A DNA stretch of 64,000 nt from Serinibacter salmoneus (GTDB lineage Bacteria > Actinomycetota > Actinomycetes > Actinomycetales > Beutenbergiaceae), in assembly GCF_002563925.1 (NCBI RefSeq), contig NZ_PDJD01000001.1, positions 2,858,973 to 2,922,972 of the forward strand, written 5' to 3'. The notes beneath the pieces are model-generated. The model saw only the letters and a list, made by a program, of their open reading frames with translations. It had not been told where the DNA came from and ran no database searches. Shown piece by piece: positions 11,053 to 35,921 of the stretch. The translations under genes were made by a program, and so were the position numbers. The number at the start of each line of letters is the position of its first letter. Positions within the stretch are counted from its first letter, which is position 1.

Positions 11053-11084
11053 GATGAGGCCCGACGACGTCGTCGGGCCTCATC
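11053..11084. terminator. Bidirectional terminator between LppM gene and pgi
   Basis: A perfect 32-bp palindrome (16-bp arms, GATGAGGCCCGACGAC and its complement) lies between two convergent genes. Little T-run follows, as is usual in GC-rich actinobacteria. Confidence 0.85.
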
Positions 11085-13784: not shown

Positions 13785-15107
13785 GTGCCCACTGCAGGCT
13801 CCCCCGCCACCGGTTCCCGCAATCCCTTCTCCTGGCGGGTCCACGGGGACGGTCGGACCGTCGCGCCCGGGACGGTGGTCACGCCGTCGGAGCGGCTGAG
13901 TTGGCCGCGCACCATCGGCATCGGCATGCAGCACGTGGTTGCCATGTTCGGCGCCACGTTCCTGGTACCGCTGATCACCGGGCTCCCGCCCGCGACCACC
14001 CTGTTCTTCTCCGGGGTCGGCACGTTCCTGTTCCTGCTCATCACGCGCGGGAAGGTGCCCAGCTACCTCGGTTCGAGTTTCGCCTTCATCGCCCCGATCG
14101 CGGCGGCTGAGGCCTCCGGCGGGATGGCGAGCGCGCTGGGAGGCGTGGTGATCGCGGGGGTGACCCTCGCCGTCGTCGGCCTCATCGTGAACTGGGCGGG
14201 GCACCGCTGGATCGACGTGGTGATGCCACCCGTGGTCACCGGCACCATCGTGGCGCTCATCGGCTTCAACCTGGCACCCGCGGCCTGGGGCAACGTGCAG
14301 CAGGCTCCGGTCACCGCCGTGGTGACAATCCTCGCCGTGGTGCTGGCGACCGTGCTCTTCCGCGGCATCCTGGGCCGGTTGGCGATCCTGGTCGGCGTGC
14401 TCGTGGGATACGTCGTGGCCCTCGTTCTCGGCGAGGTCACCTTCGAGGCCGTGCGTGAGGCAGCGTGGATCGGCCTCCCGGAGTTCACCGCCCCCACCTT
14501 CTCCATCTCCGTGCTGGGCCTGTTCGTGCCGGTGGTGCTGGTGCTGATCGCGGAGAACATCGGGCACGTGAAGTCGGTGGCGGCCATGACCGGGGAGAAC
14601 CTGGACCCGATGGCCGGGCGCGCGCTGTTCGCCGACGGACTGGCCACCACGCTCGCCGGATTCGGAGGCGGCTCGGGGACCACCACCTACGCGGAGAACA
14701 TCGGCGTGATGGCCGCGACCCGGGTCTACTCCACGGCGGCCTACTACGTGGCGGCCGCCACGGCGTTCCTGCTCTCCCTGTCCCCCAAGTTCGGTGCGCT
14801 CATCGCCACGATCCCGGTGGGTGTGCTCGGCGGGGCCGGCACCGTGCTGTACGGCATGATCGGCGTGCTCGGCGCCAGGATCTGGGTGCAGAACAAGGTG
14901 AACTTCGCCGACCCCGTGAACCTGACCACCGCCGCGATCGCCCTGATCATCGGCATCGCGAACTACACCTGGGTGGCCGGGGACCTCACCTTCGAGGGCA
15001 TCGCGCTCGGCTCGGTGGCGGCCCTGGTGATCTACCACGTGATGCGTGCGATCGCGCGGTGGCGCGGCACCCACGCCGAGGCGGCCTCACCGGCCTCCCA
15101 GGTCTAG
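13785..15107 (+). CDS. uraA: Uracil/xanthine permease, NCS2 family
   Basis: Inner-membrane nucleobase:cation symporter of 440 aa with about 14 hydrophobic segments. Family marks are QHVVAMFGATFLVPLITG at the N-terminus, GSSFAFIAPI in TM3, and the substrate-site segment ENIGHVKSV plus GGSGTTTYAENIGVMAATRV in the second repeat. This arrangement is that of uracil permeases (UraA/RutG type) rather than xanthine permeases. The start GTG at 13785 is preceded by ACGAAGG. No pyrimidine pathway gene is adjacent, so uracil is the best but not the only substrate guess. Confidence 0.9.
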   Translation: MPTAGSPATGSRNPFSWRVHGDGRTVAPGTVVTPSERLSWPRTIGIGMQHVVAMFGATFLVPLITGLPPATTLFFSGVGTFLFLLITRGKVPSYLGSSFAFIAPIAAAEASGGMASALGGVVIAGVTLAVVGLIVNWAGHRWIDVVMPPVVTGTIVALIGFNLAPAAWGNVQQAPVTAVVTILAVVLATVLFRGILGRLAILVGVLVGYVVALVLGEVTFEAVREAAWIGLPEFTAPTFSISVLGLFVPVVLVLIAENIGHVKSVAAMTGENLDPMAGRALFADGLATTLAGFGGGSGTTTYAENIGVMAATRVYSTAAYYVAAATAFLLSLSPKFGALIATIPVGVLGGAGTVLYGMIGVLGARIWVQNKVNFADPVNLTTAAIALIIGIANYTWVAGDLTFEGIALGSVAALVIYHVMRAIARWRGTHAEAASPASQV

Positions 15108-15123: not shown

Positions 15124-15169
15124 GCACGGTGCGGGGCGTGCGCCGATCGGCGCACGCCCCGCACCGTGC
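15124..15169. terminator. Strong terminator after the permease gene
   Basis: A perfect 46-bp palindrome (23-bp arms beginning GCACGGTGCGGGGCG) starts 16 bp after the permease stop and 150 bp before the LacI-family gene. It is the longest perfect palindrome noticed in the window. Confidence 0.85.
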
Positions 15170-15319: not shown

Positions 15320-16381
15320 GTGACGCAGGAGCACGGGGGCATCGGCGCGACCTCACCCCGCTCGCGGCCGCGCCTGATCGACGTCGCCGAGCGCAGCGGC
15401 GTGACCAAGTCCGTCGTCTCGCGCATCATGAACGCCGATCCCACGCTGCGCACCCGCCCGGAGACCCGCGAACGCGTGCTCGAGATCGCCCGAGAGCTCG
15501 GGTACCGACCCCACGCCGGCGCCCGCGCCCTCTCGGTGGCCCGCACCGGCACGCTGGCCTTCCTCATCCCGGACCTGACGAACACCGTCTACTCCACGAT
15601 CCTGCGGGGAGCGATCCGCCGCGCGAGTGAACTCAGCTACGTCGTGCTGATCGCCGAGGATGCGGCGGAGTCCCCCGCCGGCGCCAACGAGTACGCCGAC
15701 CTGGTGAGCACCGGGCGCGTGGACGGGCTCCTGGTCGGATCGGCGCGGCCCGACTCCCCCCTGCTGGCCAGCCTCGCGGGCGACTCGCGCTCCATCGCTC
15801 ATGTCTTCGTCAACCGCGAGGTCCCCGGGTCGGGGCGCAATGTGGGGCTCGACATCGCCGGCGCCGCAGCCTTGGTGGTGGACTACCTGCACGCCCAGGG
15901 CCACACCGAGATCGGCCTCGTCTCCGGCCCGCTGGAGCTCCAACCCGCCCGCTCACGCATCGCGGGCTTCCAGGCCCGCATGGAGGCGCTCGGCCTGGAC
16001 GGCAGCCGGGTCCGCACCGGACCGTTCAACGAGACCGGGGGCCACGGGGCCGCCACGGAACTCCTGGGCGCGCACCCGGAACTGACCGCCGTGTTCGGCT
16101 CCACCTTCGGCCAGTCGCTCGGCTGCCTGAAGGCGGTCACGCGCCTCGGCCTGAGCGTGCCAGGGGACGTCTCGGTCATCGGCTACGACGACCTCCCCGC
16201 CGCGGACTTCCTCATTCCCAGCCTCACGACCGTGGCGATGCCCCTGGACCAGCTCGGGGTCGCCGCCGTCGACGCCCTCGTGGCGCAGATCGAGGGTGCG
16301 GACCCGGCCGACGTCACCGTCACGGGCGGGAGTCACGTCGTCGAGCGCAACTCCGTCGGGCCGGCGCGCGCCCGGGCCTGA
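15320..16381 (+). CDS. LacI-family transcriptional regulator
   Basis: Repressor-type regulator of 353 aa. The N-terminal LacI helix-turn-helix spans about residues 19-45 (LIDVAERSGVTKSVVSRIMN) with the hinge helix ARALSVARTGTLAF; the remainder is a periplasmic-binding-protein-like effector domain (LIPDLTNTVYSTILRGAIR, VSVIGYDDLPAADFLIPSLTTV). It starts at GTG 15320. Such proteins usually sense a sugar. No sugar genes adjoin, but a sugar ABC transporter with LacI-like operators lies at 26.5-30.1 kb. A link is possible but unproven. Confidence 0.9.
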   Translation: MTQEHGGIGATSPRSRPRLIDVAERSGVTKSVVSRIMNADPTLRTRPETRERVLEIARELGYRPHAGARALSVARTGTLAFLIPDLTNTVYSTILRGAIRRASELSYVVLIAEDAAESPAGANEYADLVSTGRVDGLLVGSARPDSPLLASLAGDSRSIAHVFVNREVPGSGRNVGLDIAGAAALVVDYLHAQGHTEIGLVSGPLELQPARSRIAGFQARMEALGLDGSRVRTGPFNETGGHGAATELLGAHPELTAVFGSTFGQSLGCLKAVTRLGLSVPGDVSVIGYDDLPAADFLIPSLTTVAMPLDQLGVAAVDALVAQIEGADPADVTVTGGSHVVERNSVGPARARA

Positions 16382-16476
16382 CGGCGCCCCGATTCCGCCA
16401 CACCCTCACTCCCCGTTCCGGCCCTCCAGGCGCGAGCACGGGCCACCTCCGCGCGCGCCCACACACTGCCGTTCGC

Positions 16477-16497
16477 CTTGAGTGAACTCCGCTCAAC
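16477..16497 (+). promoter_or_regulatory. HAIR-type HspR operator upstream of hsp20
   Basis: CTTGAGT-N7-GCTCAAC matches the HspR-associated inverted repeat CTTGAGT-N7-ACTCAAG at 12 of 14 positions. It lies 118 bp before the hsp20 ATG and 5 bp from the CIRCE element. Confidence 0.75.
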
Positions 16498-16502
16498 TTT
16501 GG

Positions 16503-16529
16503 CTGGCACTCTCGGTTGCGGAGTGCTAA
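16503..16529 (+). promoter_or_regulatory. CIRCE-type HrcA operator upstream of hsp20
   Basis: CTGGCACTC-N9-GAGTGCTAA matches CIRCE (TTAGCACTC-N9-GAGTGCTAA) with 7 of 9 bases in the left arm, 9 of 9 in the right arm and the exact 9-bp spacing. With the adjoining HAIR it implies double repression by HrcA and HspR. Confidence 0.85.
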
Positions 16530-16614
16530 AACAGTGGTGTACCGCCGACGGGAAACCCCGCCGACCAACCACACCGGGTCCGATGAGGACCCCGACACCG
16601 GAGGTGAGAAGGAC

Positions 16615-17046
16615 ATGGCCAACCGCTACGACCCCTTCCAGGAGCTGGACCGCCTCTTCGGCCAGATGGTCTCCTCGCAGCGCGCATCCGCGCAGATGCC
16701 GATGGACCTCTACCGCAGCGGCGACCACTACGTGCTGCGCACCGACCTGCCGGGCGCTGACCCCGGCTCGATCGACGTGAACGTCGAGGACCGCACCCTG
16801 ACGATCCGCGCCGAGCGCAGCGCCGCCGAGGACAACGACGTGCAGTGGCTCGCCAAGGAGCGCCCGGTCGGCACCTACGCCCGGCAGCTCACCGTGGGCC
16901 GCGGCCTCGCGCTGGACAAGATCGAGGCGACCTACGCCGACGGCGTCCTCACGCTGACCATCCCGGTCGCCGAGGAGGCCAAGCCGCGCCGCATCGAGGT
17001 GCAGCACAGCGCGCAGAACGCGCAGCTGACCGACGCGGCGAGCTGA
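16615..17046 (+). CDS. Hsp20 / alpha-crystallin small heat-shock protein
   Basis: ATP-independent holdase chaperone of 143 aa in the cytosol. The alpha-crystallin domain covers about residues 32-130 (YVLRTDLPGADPGSIDV through YADGVLTLTIPVAEE), with a short N-terminal arm (YDPFQELDRLF) and the IEV motif in the tail. The ATG at 16615 is preceded by GAGGTGAGAAGGAC. HAIR and CIRCE operators upstream make it a heat-shock gene, and a terminator follows. Confidence 0.95.
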   Translation: MANRYDPFQELDRLFGQMVSSQRASAQMPMDLYRSGDHYVLRTDLPGADPGSIDVNVEDRTLTIRAERSAAEDNDVQWLAKERPVGTYARQLTVGRGLALDKIEATYADGVLTLTIPVAEEAKPRRIEVQHSAQNAQLTDAAS

Positions 17047-17073
17047 ACGCGCAGCAGCGCCGCATCGCACAAC

Positions 17074-17114
17074 AGCGAGGGCGCGGTGGGCCAGGTGCCC
17101 GCCGCGCCCTCGCT
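17074..17114 (+). terminator. Terminator after hsp20
   Basis: A 13-bp perfect stem, AGCGAGGGCGCGG (17074-17086) with its complement at 17102-17114 and a 15-nt loop, begins 28 bp after the hsp20 stop. Confidence 0.75.
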
Positions 17115-17150
17115 GCGTGTGCCGCCGCACTGTCCTCGCTGCCTGCGCCG

Positions 17151-17225
17151 CCGCGAGATGGTCCGAAGCCCGCGAGCGACGACGCCCGGCGGACCATCTC
17201 GCGGGCATCGTCGTCGCTCGCGGGC
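17151..17225. repeat. Interlocked pair of perfect inverted repeats (A-B-A'-B' order)
   Basis: Arm A (17151-17165, CCGCGAGATGGTCCG) pairs with A' (17190-17204), 15 bp, no mismatch. Arm B (17168-17184, GCCCGCGAGCGACGACG) pairs with B' (17209-17225), 17 bp, no mismatch. Because B begins before A' the two stems cannot nest: as RNA they form either of two exclusive hairpins or an H-type pseudoknot. The element lies in the 457-bp gap between hsp20 and the small gene at 17504. No coding sequence was found in that gap. Confidence 0.9.
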
Positions 17226-17235
17226 CGGAGGCGGC

Positions 17236-17262
17236 GGAATGAAGTGGACGACGGCGCGGTTG
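17236..17262 (+). promoter_or_regulatory. Candidate SigR/SigH-type ECF promoter
   Basis: GGAAT (17236-17240), 18 bp, then GTTG (17259-17262) fits the actinobacterial thiol-oxidative-stress sigma consensus GGAAT-N18-GTT. It begins 11 bp after the interlocked repeats and would give a leader of about 230 nt for the gene at 17504. A chance match is possible. Confidence 0.35.
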
Positions 17263-17503
17263 TCACCTACAGTGAAGGCTTCGTCCGCGACTTCGACGTC
17301 GCGACGAGATCGGCGGCGTAAGCCGCCAATCGCAGGGCCACCGGCCCCGCGAGGGCCACGAGGCCCCACCCGACCGTTCGGCCGACGCGGTGAGAACCCC
17401 CGCGGCCCCGGCACGCACCGCAGGTCTGGCAGCACTCATCACGCGCCGACCGCGAGCGAGTCGATCCCGGCGATCGGGCCGCACAGCACAAGGAGCAGGA
17501 CCC

Positions 17504-17851
17504 ATGACCACCATTCACCCCGATCTGACCACCACCCGCCCCGGCACCCTGGCGGGCGAGATCACGCTGGCAGCCGAGGCCGCGGCCCACGGCGTGCGCA
17601 CCATGCTCGCGGAGCGCCGCGAACCCCGCCGGCCCCAGCCGCTCGCCTTCCTGGACGACGGCCGTCGCGTCTTCCTCATCGTCGACGCGGGCCGCGGCCG
17701 CCCGGTCGACCAGCCCCGCTCCTGGGGCATCGAGGTCACCCGTGACGGCGACCTCGTGGGCGACGGCGGAACCCACCTGGCCTTCCGCAGCACCCAGCCC
17801 CCGACGGCGCGCGCCGCCGAGCGCGCCACGCGCTTCCTCCTGGAGGGCTGA
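17504..17851 (+). CDS. Small hypothetical protein, 115 aa
   Basis: Not recognised. A soluble protein, Arg/Ala/Pro-rich, with a central predicted beta-hairpin (PLAFLDDGRRVFLIVDAG) and a second (WGIEVTRDGDLVGDGG). No signal peptide or membrane span. AAGGAGCAGGACCC before the ATG at 17504 is a strong ribosome-binding site, so translation here is likely. A terminator hairpin follows the stop. It may be stress-induced if the SigR-like box upstream is real. Confidence 0.65.
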   Translation: MTTIHPDLTTTRPGTLAGEITLAAEAAAHGVRTMLAERREPRRPQPLAFLDDGRRVFLIVDAGRGRPVDQPRSWGIEVTRDGDLVGDGGTHLAFRSTQPPTARAAERATRFLLEG

Positions 17852-17898
17852 GACCGAGCCCGGCACCCCCGCTCGGGGGCGCCGGACCCCGGCAGCAC

Positions 17899-17940
17899 GA
17901 GACGGCCCCCGGACCGCACACGCGGTCCGGGGGCCGTCTC
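17899..17940. terminator. Terminator between convergent genes
   Basis: A 19-bp perfect stem (17899-17917 with 17922-17940, loop ACAC) lies between the small gene and the convergent CotH-like gene, ending 37 bp from the CotH stop. Confidence 0.9.
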
Positions 17941-17977
17941 GTCCCGGGCGGGAGGGGCCACCCCGGGACGCCTCATC

Positions 17978-19501
17978 TCACGCTGTCGCGCCGGGGTCGG
18001 CGGCGCCGGTCTCCTCGCGGGTCTCACTGGTGCGGGCCTGGACCTCGCTGGTCGCGTAGCCGAGGATCGACTCGGACTCGCTCTGCAGCGTGGTGGTGTC
18101 GATCAGGTCGGAGGCGCCGGCGGTCAGGACGTCGACCCAGGAGTCGACGGTCTCCTCCAGGAGCCCGGAGTCGTAGAGCTCCGCCTGCAGATCGGCGAGC
18201 GCCTCCTCGTACAGGGCGGCGAACTCCTCGTTCTCCAGGAAGCGGGTGGTGAGCTGGTTGTTCCCGCTCTGGGCGCCACCGCCGAAGCCACCGCCAGCGG
18301 CGTCGCCGGGCACACCACCCGGTGCGCCGCCCGGCCTCGCCGGCAGCTCACCCTCGGCCACACCCTCCGGCAGTTCACCCTCGGCCACACCCTCCGGCAG
18401 TTCACCCTCGGCCACACCCTCCGGCAACTCACCGGCGGCGCCGGGAGCAGCGCCGCGGCCACCGGGCACGCCGCCCCTCTCGCCGGGTGCGCCGCCCATC
18501 TCACCGGGCTGGCCGCCGCCGTTCTGCACCCCGAAGGCGAGGTTGTGGTCCCACGCCACCACGGTCATCTGACCGGAGGCGGGGTCGTAGTAGAGGTAGG
18601 AGTTGTTCCCCGGGCCGTCGATGTCATCGAAGTTGTCGATGAGGTCCTCCAGCGCGAGGTAGCGCGCGAAGGAATCGACGTCGAGCACCTCGGGGAGCTG
18701 CTCGGCGAACTCCTCGTCGGTGGTGTTGTTGACCACGTCCAGGAAGTCCACCAGCGGTTGGTAGTCCTCCTCGCCCTCCTCCAGGTCGAAGGCTTCGGTG
18801 TAGAGGTCGCCGTCCTCCCCCAACCAGGAGTAGTCGTACCCGCTCTCGGCCTTGTACAGGATGCCGTCGGAGGAGGGCAGCAGACCCGCCTCGGCGTTGC
18901 GCTCCAGCCAGGAGTCGTTGGGCACCGCGACCGTCAGCCGCAGGTCCTCCTCGCTCCCATTGATCGAGAACCGGGTGGCGCTGGACTCCTCGGTGGCCAG
19001 GCCCGCGTAGCTGAGCATCTCCAGGGCCACCGCCTCGTTCAGGGAGCTCTCGGTGTTGTTGGAACGCACCACGATGTCGGTGACGCCCTCGATGCTCTGG
19101 TCATCCACGTACTTGTCAGTCCGGATCCGCCACGGCAGGTCAGTGATCGGGGTGTCCAGCGTCACGCCCTGCAGGCTGGAGTTGCCCTTGAGCTTGATGC
19201 CCACGCTCTCGTAGGTCACGCCGTCGATCACCACATCGGCCTCGAGCCACTCCTTCTCGCCGGTGTCGAGGTAGGTCTGGATCATGGCCTCGACCTCGGC
19301 CTCGTCCACCAGGATCTCGATGGAGTGGACGGTGGAGGAGTCGAAGAACGATCCGTCGTCGGCCGCGAGGCTGACGCTGGTGACGCTCGTGGTGCCCGAG
19401 GCGGTGGTGGAACCGGTGGCCGCCGTGGAGCAGCCCGCCAGGACGAGGGCGATGGCTGCCGCAGTTGCGCTGATCGTGGTGAGGGAGGCTCGCTTCTTCA
19501 T
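17978..19501 (-). CDS. CotH-like protein kinase domain lipoprotein
   Basis: Surface lipoprotein of 507 aa. Signal peptide with lipobox LAGC (cysteine near residue 24). The CotH domain follows: VHSIEILVDEAEVEAMI, KLKGNSSLQG, WRIRTDKYVDDQSIEG, and near residue 310 the NSYLYYDPASGQMTVVAWDHNLAFG segment holding the family's metal-binding DHN. CotH relatives are secreted atypical kinases, including spore coat CotH. A low-complexity Gly/Pro insert (about 325-410) carries a 9-residue tandem repeat, then a helical C-terminus. The start is the ATG at 19501, since the upstream open frame is not protein-like. Confidence 0.85.
   Translation of the reverse strand: MKKRASLTTISATAAAIALVLAGCSTAATGSTTASGTTSVTSVSLAADDGSFFDSSTVHSIEILVDEAEVEAMIQTYLDTGEKEWLEADVVIDGVTYESVGIKLKGNSSLQGVTLDTPITDLPWRIRTDKYVDDQSIEGVTDIVVRSNNTESSLNEAVALEMLSYAGLATEESSATRFSINGSEEDLRLTVAVPNDSWLERNAEAGLLPSSDGILYKAESGYDYSWLGEDGDLYTEAFDLEEGEEDYQPLVDFLDVVNNTTDEEFAEQLPEVLDVDSFARYLALEDLIDNFDDIDGPGNNSYLYYDPASGQMTVVAWDHNLAFGVQNGGGQPGEMGGAPGERGGVPGGRGAAPGAAGELPEGVAEGELPEGVAEGELPEGVAEGELPARPGGAPGGVPGDAAGGGFGGGAQSGNNQLTTRFLENEEFAALYEEALADLQAELYDSGLLEETVDSWVDVLTAGASDLIDTTTLQSESESILGYATSEVQARTSETREETGAADPGATA
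18344..18424 (-). repeat. 27-bp tandem repeat inside the CotH-like gene
   Basis: Three full 27-bp units (18344-18370, 18371-18397, 18398-18424), the second and third identical, plus a partial fourth. Each encodes the nonapeptide ELPEGVAEG. Multiples of 9 codons keep the frame, so copy number can vary without breaking the protein. Confidence 0.95.
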
Positions 19502-35879: not shown

Positions 35880-35921
35880 CGGCCGTGGGCCCGGGCGGGA
35901 CTCCGCCCGGGCCCACGGCCG
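35880..35921. terminator. Bidirectional terminator
   Basis: A 19-bp perfect stem (35880-35898 with 35903-35921, loop GACT) lies between the AztD-like gene and the convergent end of the toxin/immunity operon. The rest of the 140-bp gap shows nothing. Confidence 0.9.

Follow-up and report, generated by a model that had tools for sequence, protein, structure and literature searches.

The window analysed here, a stretch of 64,000 nucleotides from the genome of Serinibacter salmoneus, carries an hsp20 gene on the forward strand (16615–17046, Pfam HSP20, E = 1.3e-21), followed on the same strand by a separate GC-rich hairpin directly 3' of the gene and without a T-run (17073–17115), a palindromic element (17151–17225) and a small gene without Pfam match (17504–17851). 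The hairpin behind hsp20 (19 nt, 95%), which a preliminary description of this DNA had placed at 17074–17114, is real, and no terminator-like hairpin with a T-run was found within 16950–17560.

The palindromic element consists of two perfect inverted repeats that interlock in the order A-B-A'-B', just as the preliminary description had it. The arms of one are 15 nt long (17151–17165 and 17190–17204) and those of the other 17 nt (17168–17184 and 17209–17225), both with 100% matching and 24 nt between the arms. Seven perfect inverted repeats were detected in the window (arms of at least 14, spacers of at most 60), only this element containing an interlocked pair, and 20 dinucleotide shuffles of the window gave two such repeats in total and no interlocked pair. 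The 67-bp core of the element (17154–17220, forward strand) matches a degenerate four-site frame with no mismatch. On the forward strand lie site 1, with a word termed X (CGCGAG-ATGGTC-CG, 17152–17165), and site 2, with a word termed Y (CGCGAG-CGACGA-CG, 17171–17184); after a central 5-bp spacer, CCCGG (17185–17189), come site 3 with the reversed word X, the complement of site 1 (17190–17203, reverse strand), and site 4 with the reversed word Y, the complement of site 2 (17209–17222, reverse strand). Arms A and B correspond to words X and Y, and the CCGCGAG noticed earlier as common to both arms belongs to a frame that recurs in nine copies. When the 67-mer was forced into each fold, pairing of sites 1 and 3 gave -33.6, of sites 2 and 4 -32.8 and of sites 1 and 4 -28.9 kcal/mol. 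The window also holds a perfect 46-bp palindrome with 23-bp arms and no spacer (15124–15169), between an ORF end at 15107 and the start of a LacI-type gene at 15320, and perfect hairpins at 11053–11084, 17897–17942 and 35880–35921 with arms of 16, 21 and 19 bp, respectively.

In a Miniimonas arenae contig, an hsp20 gene of 77% identity is likewise followed by a related small gene, and the element is absent from between the two genes of this syntenic locus. Two tested word patterns were also absent from the fetched stretches of 14 hsp20-relative loci. No Rfam family matched at gathering score within 16000–18500 of the window, where matches were sub-threshold only, and none matched at five other loci. 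No hsp20 DNA was found in plasmids.

Copies in the Serinibacter salmoneus genome

The preliminary description had reasoned that multiple genomic copies would make the element a REP rather than a riboregulator, and a blast search with the window region identified nine copies (E1 to E9, E1 being the one in the window) at scattered places in the genome, a single contig of 3,268,715 bp. A profile built from the nine elements recovers the same nine. Among 24 genomes of the family, blast gave matches in 7, those in the six genomes other than S. salmoneus being short, weak, coding or chance by eye. Two weaker relatives within S. salmoneus (C1:1652887, positions 1501–1571 of locus L111, E = 0.004; C1:3048524, positions 1501–1566 of L112, E = 0.014) have a similar four-site frame with a third word, AGAGTC. 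Nine copies and two weak relatives make a dispersed multicopy repeat, of low number for REPs.

The nine copies align without gaps over 71 bp. Each comprises four 14-bp sites separated by 5-bp linkers (a period of 19 bp), with sites 1 and 2 on the strand opposite to sites 3 and 4. The frame of a site is CGCGAG-n6-CG or a near form, where n6 is one of two word types, X (ATGGTC or ATGGTG) or Y (NGACGA with variants). The interlocked order X Y X' Y' is present in E1 and E2, whereas E3, E4, E5, E7 and E8 have the order Y Y X' Y', E6 has X Y X' X' and E9 has Y Y Y' Y', which forms a near-perfect long hairpin (-68.3 kcal/mol). In this way, seven of the nine copies have outer sites of one word type, able to form a nested hairpin, and the interlocked order of the other two is best seen as a word arrangement. 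Genome-wide, 11 of 18 exact X words and 11 of 13 exact Y words lie inside the nine elements, so exact sites are concentrated in whole elements here; by eye, none of the remaining exact words (seven X and two Y) resembles a transposon end. Near the contig ends, one stretch with word X is present in three copies (C1:11430, 3256684 and 3265881, one of them inverted), perhaps a repeated mobile gene.

The surroundings of the copies were assigned with tRNA calls and a codon-usage script that was trained on five window genes and applied also to the other genera described below. E1 lies between co-directional genes (hsp20 and the small gene), while E2, E4, E5 and E6 lie between convergent genes or between a gene and a tRNA, E2 overlapping the end of a called ORF. 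The identical copies E4 and E5 lie 153 bp apart beside tRNA-Glu (C1:1926435–1926664). E3 and E9 follow tRNA-Ser and tRNA-Leu, and E7 lies about 14 bp past a stop codon. The genes around E8 appear to be divergent, with weak support for the call on the right. Eight of the nine copies have the 3' end of a gene or tRNA on at least one side.

A second family with the same frame

The nine-copy profile was searched against 396 genomes of the order, giving matches in 55 including S. salmoneus, mostly of 20–28 bits and resembling chance similarity in GC-rich DNA. Among the match loci printed, most were by eye coding-like and without the frame; the exceptions were a plain hairpin (L123) and a true relative (L126) in genome G238, which is from another family and has the same four-site layout with a different word. 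We then used a frame-only pattern in which words and linkers were left free and at most three mismatches allowed, with the reversed pattern as control. Three of the 396 genomes matched, S. salmoneus (nine places) and two of the genus here called g84, against none with the reversed pattern. Among the 221 genomes of G238's family, the pattern matched 13 and its reversed control 1. Two of the 13 (G496 and G497, one 3-mismatch match each) were judged by eye to resemble coding sequence and dropped. The 11 carriers retained are six of seven g84 genomes, G541 and G132 from genus g62, G529 and G531 from g117, and G218 from g60. Four of these were kept on a single 3-mismatch match each; the element of G539 is orthologous to three others and the word of G531 is that of G529, whereas G132 and G218 are without such support. 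The places analysed were 39 of 43 in this second family (9 of 12 in G238 and 9 of 10 in G541). With at most two mismatches, the frame was absent from the 354 outside-order genomes among 394 genomes of the class, a draw that contained none of the 11 carriers.

The words differ by genus, being mainly GTAGAA, GTAGTG and GTAGGA in g84, ATAGAA and GTAGAA in G541, TCAGCG in g117 and of ATAG type in G218. Among the matches listed, GTAG words were also seen beyond the analysed g84 elements, some of them likely by chance. Opposed GTAGAA words 37 bp apart lie outside the analysed elements of G238 (C9:47278 and C9:47315), possibly as a shorter or decayed form, and two elements of G537 lie about 530 bp apart (L196, 1501–1567 and 2030–2096).

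Pairing was evaluated over the 39 second-family elements from four genera. As a nested hairpin, 90.2% of cells are paired (27.5–48.1% in slid controls), and both sides are changed in 18 of 31 pairs (shuffles, 12.6) and in 118 cells (shuffles, 41.3). Outside the sites, four of the five linker pairs have 9–14 both-side changes each across the 39 elements. The interlocked pairing reaches 88.9% in the same elements; its paired cells, both-side cells (47 vs. 19.4) and covariation score lie above all 500 shuffles, and its changed-pair and pair-type counts lie within them (112 and 117 of 500). This interlocked signal exceeds some controls as well because all four sites resemble each other. The second family therefore favours the nested fold over the interlocked one, though it is not the only fold supported. 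Whole elements fold with z < -2 relative to mononucleotide shuffles in 47 of 48 cases, and half-elements in 2 of 48, i.e., no better than shuffles. The ends, CGAG...CTCG or a near form, are paired in nearly all elements and lack an unpaired GTAG or CGTC tag.

In the nine S. salmoneus copies, 70.6% of cells are paired in the nested fold (31 pairs; 54 of 500 shuffles as high) and a larger share, 79.2%, in the interlocked fold (24 pairs; 79 of 500 shuffles as high). Across the interlocked measures, 76–96 of 500 shuffles score as high, and neither fold stands clearly above the shuffles in these copies. The pseudoknot or switch put forward in the preliminary description finds its order in two of nine copies and its measures within the shuffles, and it was rejected as a general reading, the covariation of the second family being higher for the nested fold.

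In eight of the nine S. salmoneus copies, no more than one of the six inner word positions is paired. The least alike words are those of sites 2 and 3 (on average 4.0 of 6 positions in g84 and 0.9 of 6 in S. salmoneus), whereas g84 has almost identical outer words (5.6 of 6). All members of the five orthologous g84 sets have an inner mismatch; in four sets its kind is shared, and in the fifth, which has two members, its position differs between them. The genera g62 and g117 have mostly matching inner words. The asymmetry may plausibly be kept because bacteria maintain long perfect palindromes poorly. In g117 all four words are TCAGCG (one base off in one of 16 words) and the linkers pair at just 2–3 of 5 positions in three of four elements.

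For the 36 second-family elements with two called neighbors, these genes are convergent in 17 cases, co-directional in 18 and divergent in 1; an element of G529 overlapped by a predicted gene and the second elements of L196 and L201 stood outside this count. Other gaps of at least 70 bp at the same loci comprised 3 convergent, 7 co-directional and 6 divergent cases, and all other gaps 9, 25 and 6. The deficit of divergent gaps is significant against the former (1/36 vs. 6/16, P-value = 0.002; 1/26 and P-value = 0.008 when orthologues count once); against all other gaps it is not significant (6/40, P-value = 0.11, or 0.23 with the same counting). The convergent excess is modest (P-value = 0.07 vs. 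gaps of at least 70 bp and 0.03 vs. all gaps). The nearest stop codon is a median of 29 bp away (35 elements), and in co-directional cases the stop is nearer than the start for 17 of 18.

Five sets of orthologous loci are present among the analysed g84 loci. In 17 species pairs the element is 84–97% identical, and in 13 of them it is more alike than both 100-bp flanks, some of which fall below 50%; in the remaining four, one flank is equally or more conserved. Double changes are compensated in 6 of the 17 pairs and non-pairing in 9. The conservation can stem partly from exchange between copies, and covariation inside a palindrome can arise from arm-to-arm copying without selection. Directly beside the elements of one orthologous g84 set (L188, L193, L175 and L177), tandem GTGACC-like repeats vary between species.

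Mobility and relation to known repeats

In G541, two elements with unrelated flanks share an identical 67 bp, and a pair in G529 differs at a single base. Such duplicates indicate copying with sharp ends. The Y1 transposase domain of the IS200/RAYT group (PF01797) was found in none of 21 genomes including 12 carriers, the positive controls giving matches in 5 of 14, so mobilisation by RAYT was rejected. Flanking direct repeats around 45 elements, with the tandem duplicate L005 excluded, average 2.44, against 2.48 in re-paired flanks, i.e., no excess that would indicate target duplication, and none of the 92 flanks of 46 elements contains TTTT or six T in 12 bases. Neither the half-element pattern nor the whole frame had an exact match in viral contigs, neither the window element nor a g84 element matched phages, and in plasmids the g84 element had no match and the window element a single weak one (55% covered, E = 4e-3, Kitasatospora, under a hypothetical gene). 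A phage, plasmid or viral-contig carrier was rejected for lack of a clear match.

T-tract-less terminator hairpins are strong GC hairpins past stop codons, also between convergent genes. The four-site elements resemble them as GC hairpins after stops and differ in being dispersed, related in sequence and built with direct repeats within the arms. REPs have been sorted into GTAG- and CGTC-tagged superfamilies, the latter without a dedicated transposase, and are described as mostly intergenic, chiefly in convergent and co-directional gaps near the 3' ends of upstream genes, with species-specific families (sections of PMC3733652 used here). The present elements share with tagged REPs, as those sections portray them, the form of short intergenic palindromes, the 3'-end bias and families that differ from genus to genus, and resemble CGTC REPs in lacking a dedicated transposase, as far as the Y1 search of 12 carriers shows. 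They differ in that the four-site unit is not a self-folding palindrome of 20–40 bp, that an unpaired tag is lacking (the GTAG of g84 sits inside a paired word), and that even the richest genomes have about 10 copies. Extragenic placement near 3' ends, as for REPs, was found for 35 of 36 second-family elements and eight of nine S. salmoneus copies, with a significance that depends on the control.

REPINs are REP doublets that form hairpins and are associated with RAYTs (PMC3116915, in part). Like them, as far as that part of the source describes them, the present elements combine two opposed halves into one long hairpin, the proposed replicating unit; unlike them, they occur in 12 carriers without a Y1/RAYT match, and their halves are tandem site pairs that do not fold by themselves. 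BIMEs, according to the portion of PMC2817692 considered, are mosaics of repeated units in alternating orientation, as are the four-site elements, which differ by their fixed order (two right-facing sites, then two left-facing ones) and fixed period. Untagged REP-like sequences are mentioned for M. tuberculosis, D. radiodurans, Bordetellae, Brucellae and Cyanobacteria in the same paper (PMC3733652), which raises the question whether specific binding proteins accompany such sequences and does not contain the word Actinobacteria. By their description, such untagged families are the best-fitting kind, and a four-site frame with exchangeable words is not among the features given for them in those sections. 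No description of this palindrome family was found in the open-licence literature. On these tests we do not class the elements with tagged REPs, REPINs or classical MITEs; their nearest kind is the untagged REP-like repeat. Among the three readings offered by the preliminary description, the REP-like one fits best given the nine scattered copies, the switch is not supported, and the protein site is kept as a rival.

Competing explanations and a possible role

The strongest rival is a four-site protein target, in which four 12-bp recognition sites, two facing right and two facing left, would be bound by a tetrameric or dimer-of-dimers protein (a nucleoid protein, a regulator or a transposase) and the hairpin would be incidental. 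Sites 1 and 2 are direct repeats, unneeded for a hairpin, yet most elements use one word type for both; words vary from genus to genus, and g117 keeps its words constant despite poorly pairing linkers, all of which speaks for binding sites. Yet the linkers of the second family covary as pairs although they lie outside the sites, the elements are found near stops rather than starts, and no protein was identified, so we regard this explanation on its own as rather unlikely; a protein target and a hairpin acting at 3' ends can both be true. Less probable still is a MITE made from the two joined ends of a transposon since lost, each terminal inverted repeat holding transposase sites in tandem, with a DDE-type mover. 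The opposed tandem sites, the exact duplicates at unrelated loci and the syntenic M. arenae locus lacking the element agree with such an origin, but direct repeats in the flanks do not exceed those of re-paired flanks in length, and in S. salmoneus 22 of 31 exact X and Y words lie inside the nine elements, with the other nine unlike transposon ends by eye.

A switchable RNA or pseudoknot that would regulate the hsp20 region through the interlocked order is very improbable. In its favour, all 12 positions of sites 1 and 3 pair in E1, E2 and E6, and where word X varies between C and G the two arms carry matching bases; E1 has alternative folds of similar energy, and the nine copies have more paired cells in the interlocked than in the nested fold. 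The copies, however, lie beside unrelated genes, seven of the nine have another order, shuffles readily reach the interlocked measures, no Rfam family matches at gathering score and the M. arenae locus has no element. Chance can practically be dismissed: the GC-rich sequence speaks for it, but the shuffled windows gave no interlocked pair, the reversed control matched none of 396 genomes, and nine gapless copies refute it.

On balance, we consider it somewhat probable that E1 is one copy of an undescribed family of untagged REP-like palindromes that spread by a non-RAYT route and act as bidirectional hairpins at 3' ends. The unit would measure about 67–75 bp, with two right-facing and two left-facing sites of 12–14 bp, and would fold as a whole into a long hairpin of two tiers, the outer formed by sites 1 and 4 and the inner by sites 2 and 3. 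A site-reading enzyme other than RAYT may copy the unit as a whole. In transcripts of either strand, the GC-rich hairpin could mark or protect the RNA 3' end of the upstream gene and limit read-through, as has been proposed for REPs; where the elements lie, how they pair and how they are conserved lead us to infer this role. As for E1, its interlocked order may have arisen when site 1 received word X instead of Y, perhaps by copying from arm to arm within the palindrome, and the three alternative folds of similar energy would be a by-product of this swap and not a function. Several observations speak against this REP-like reading: the nested fold is not clearly above shuffles in the S. salmoneus copies, where the interlocked fold has more paired cells, E8 lies between apparently divergent genes, the copy number is low, hsp20 has a hairpin of its own, and neither a mobilising enzyme nor target duplication was found. 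Our confidence in it was lowered slightly, and that in the protein-site and MITE rivals raised, since the location result weakens when all gaps serve as the control and non-pairing double changes are no rarer than compensated ones.

More tentatively, the elements might represent a new class of selfish or domesticated palindromes in the order, with a fixed frame of CGAG-n6-CG sites in the right-right, left-left order, whose word would be read by a co-evolving non-RAYT protein. Word and protein would change together from genus to genus, and some genera would keep the inner asymmetry since it keeps the palindrome imperfect. This possibility seems doubtful at present. Among dispersed palindromes, the mover best argued for is the RAYT system. 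Here, genomes in which no RAYT transposase was found carry a compact, sharply bounded family whose frame is clear, with exact duplicates and conservation across species, and what moves and keeps palindromes outside the RAYT system becomes a testable question. If the role at 3' ends holds, the family would provide GC-rich bacteria with a recognisable class of T-less gene-end signals.
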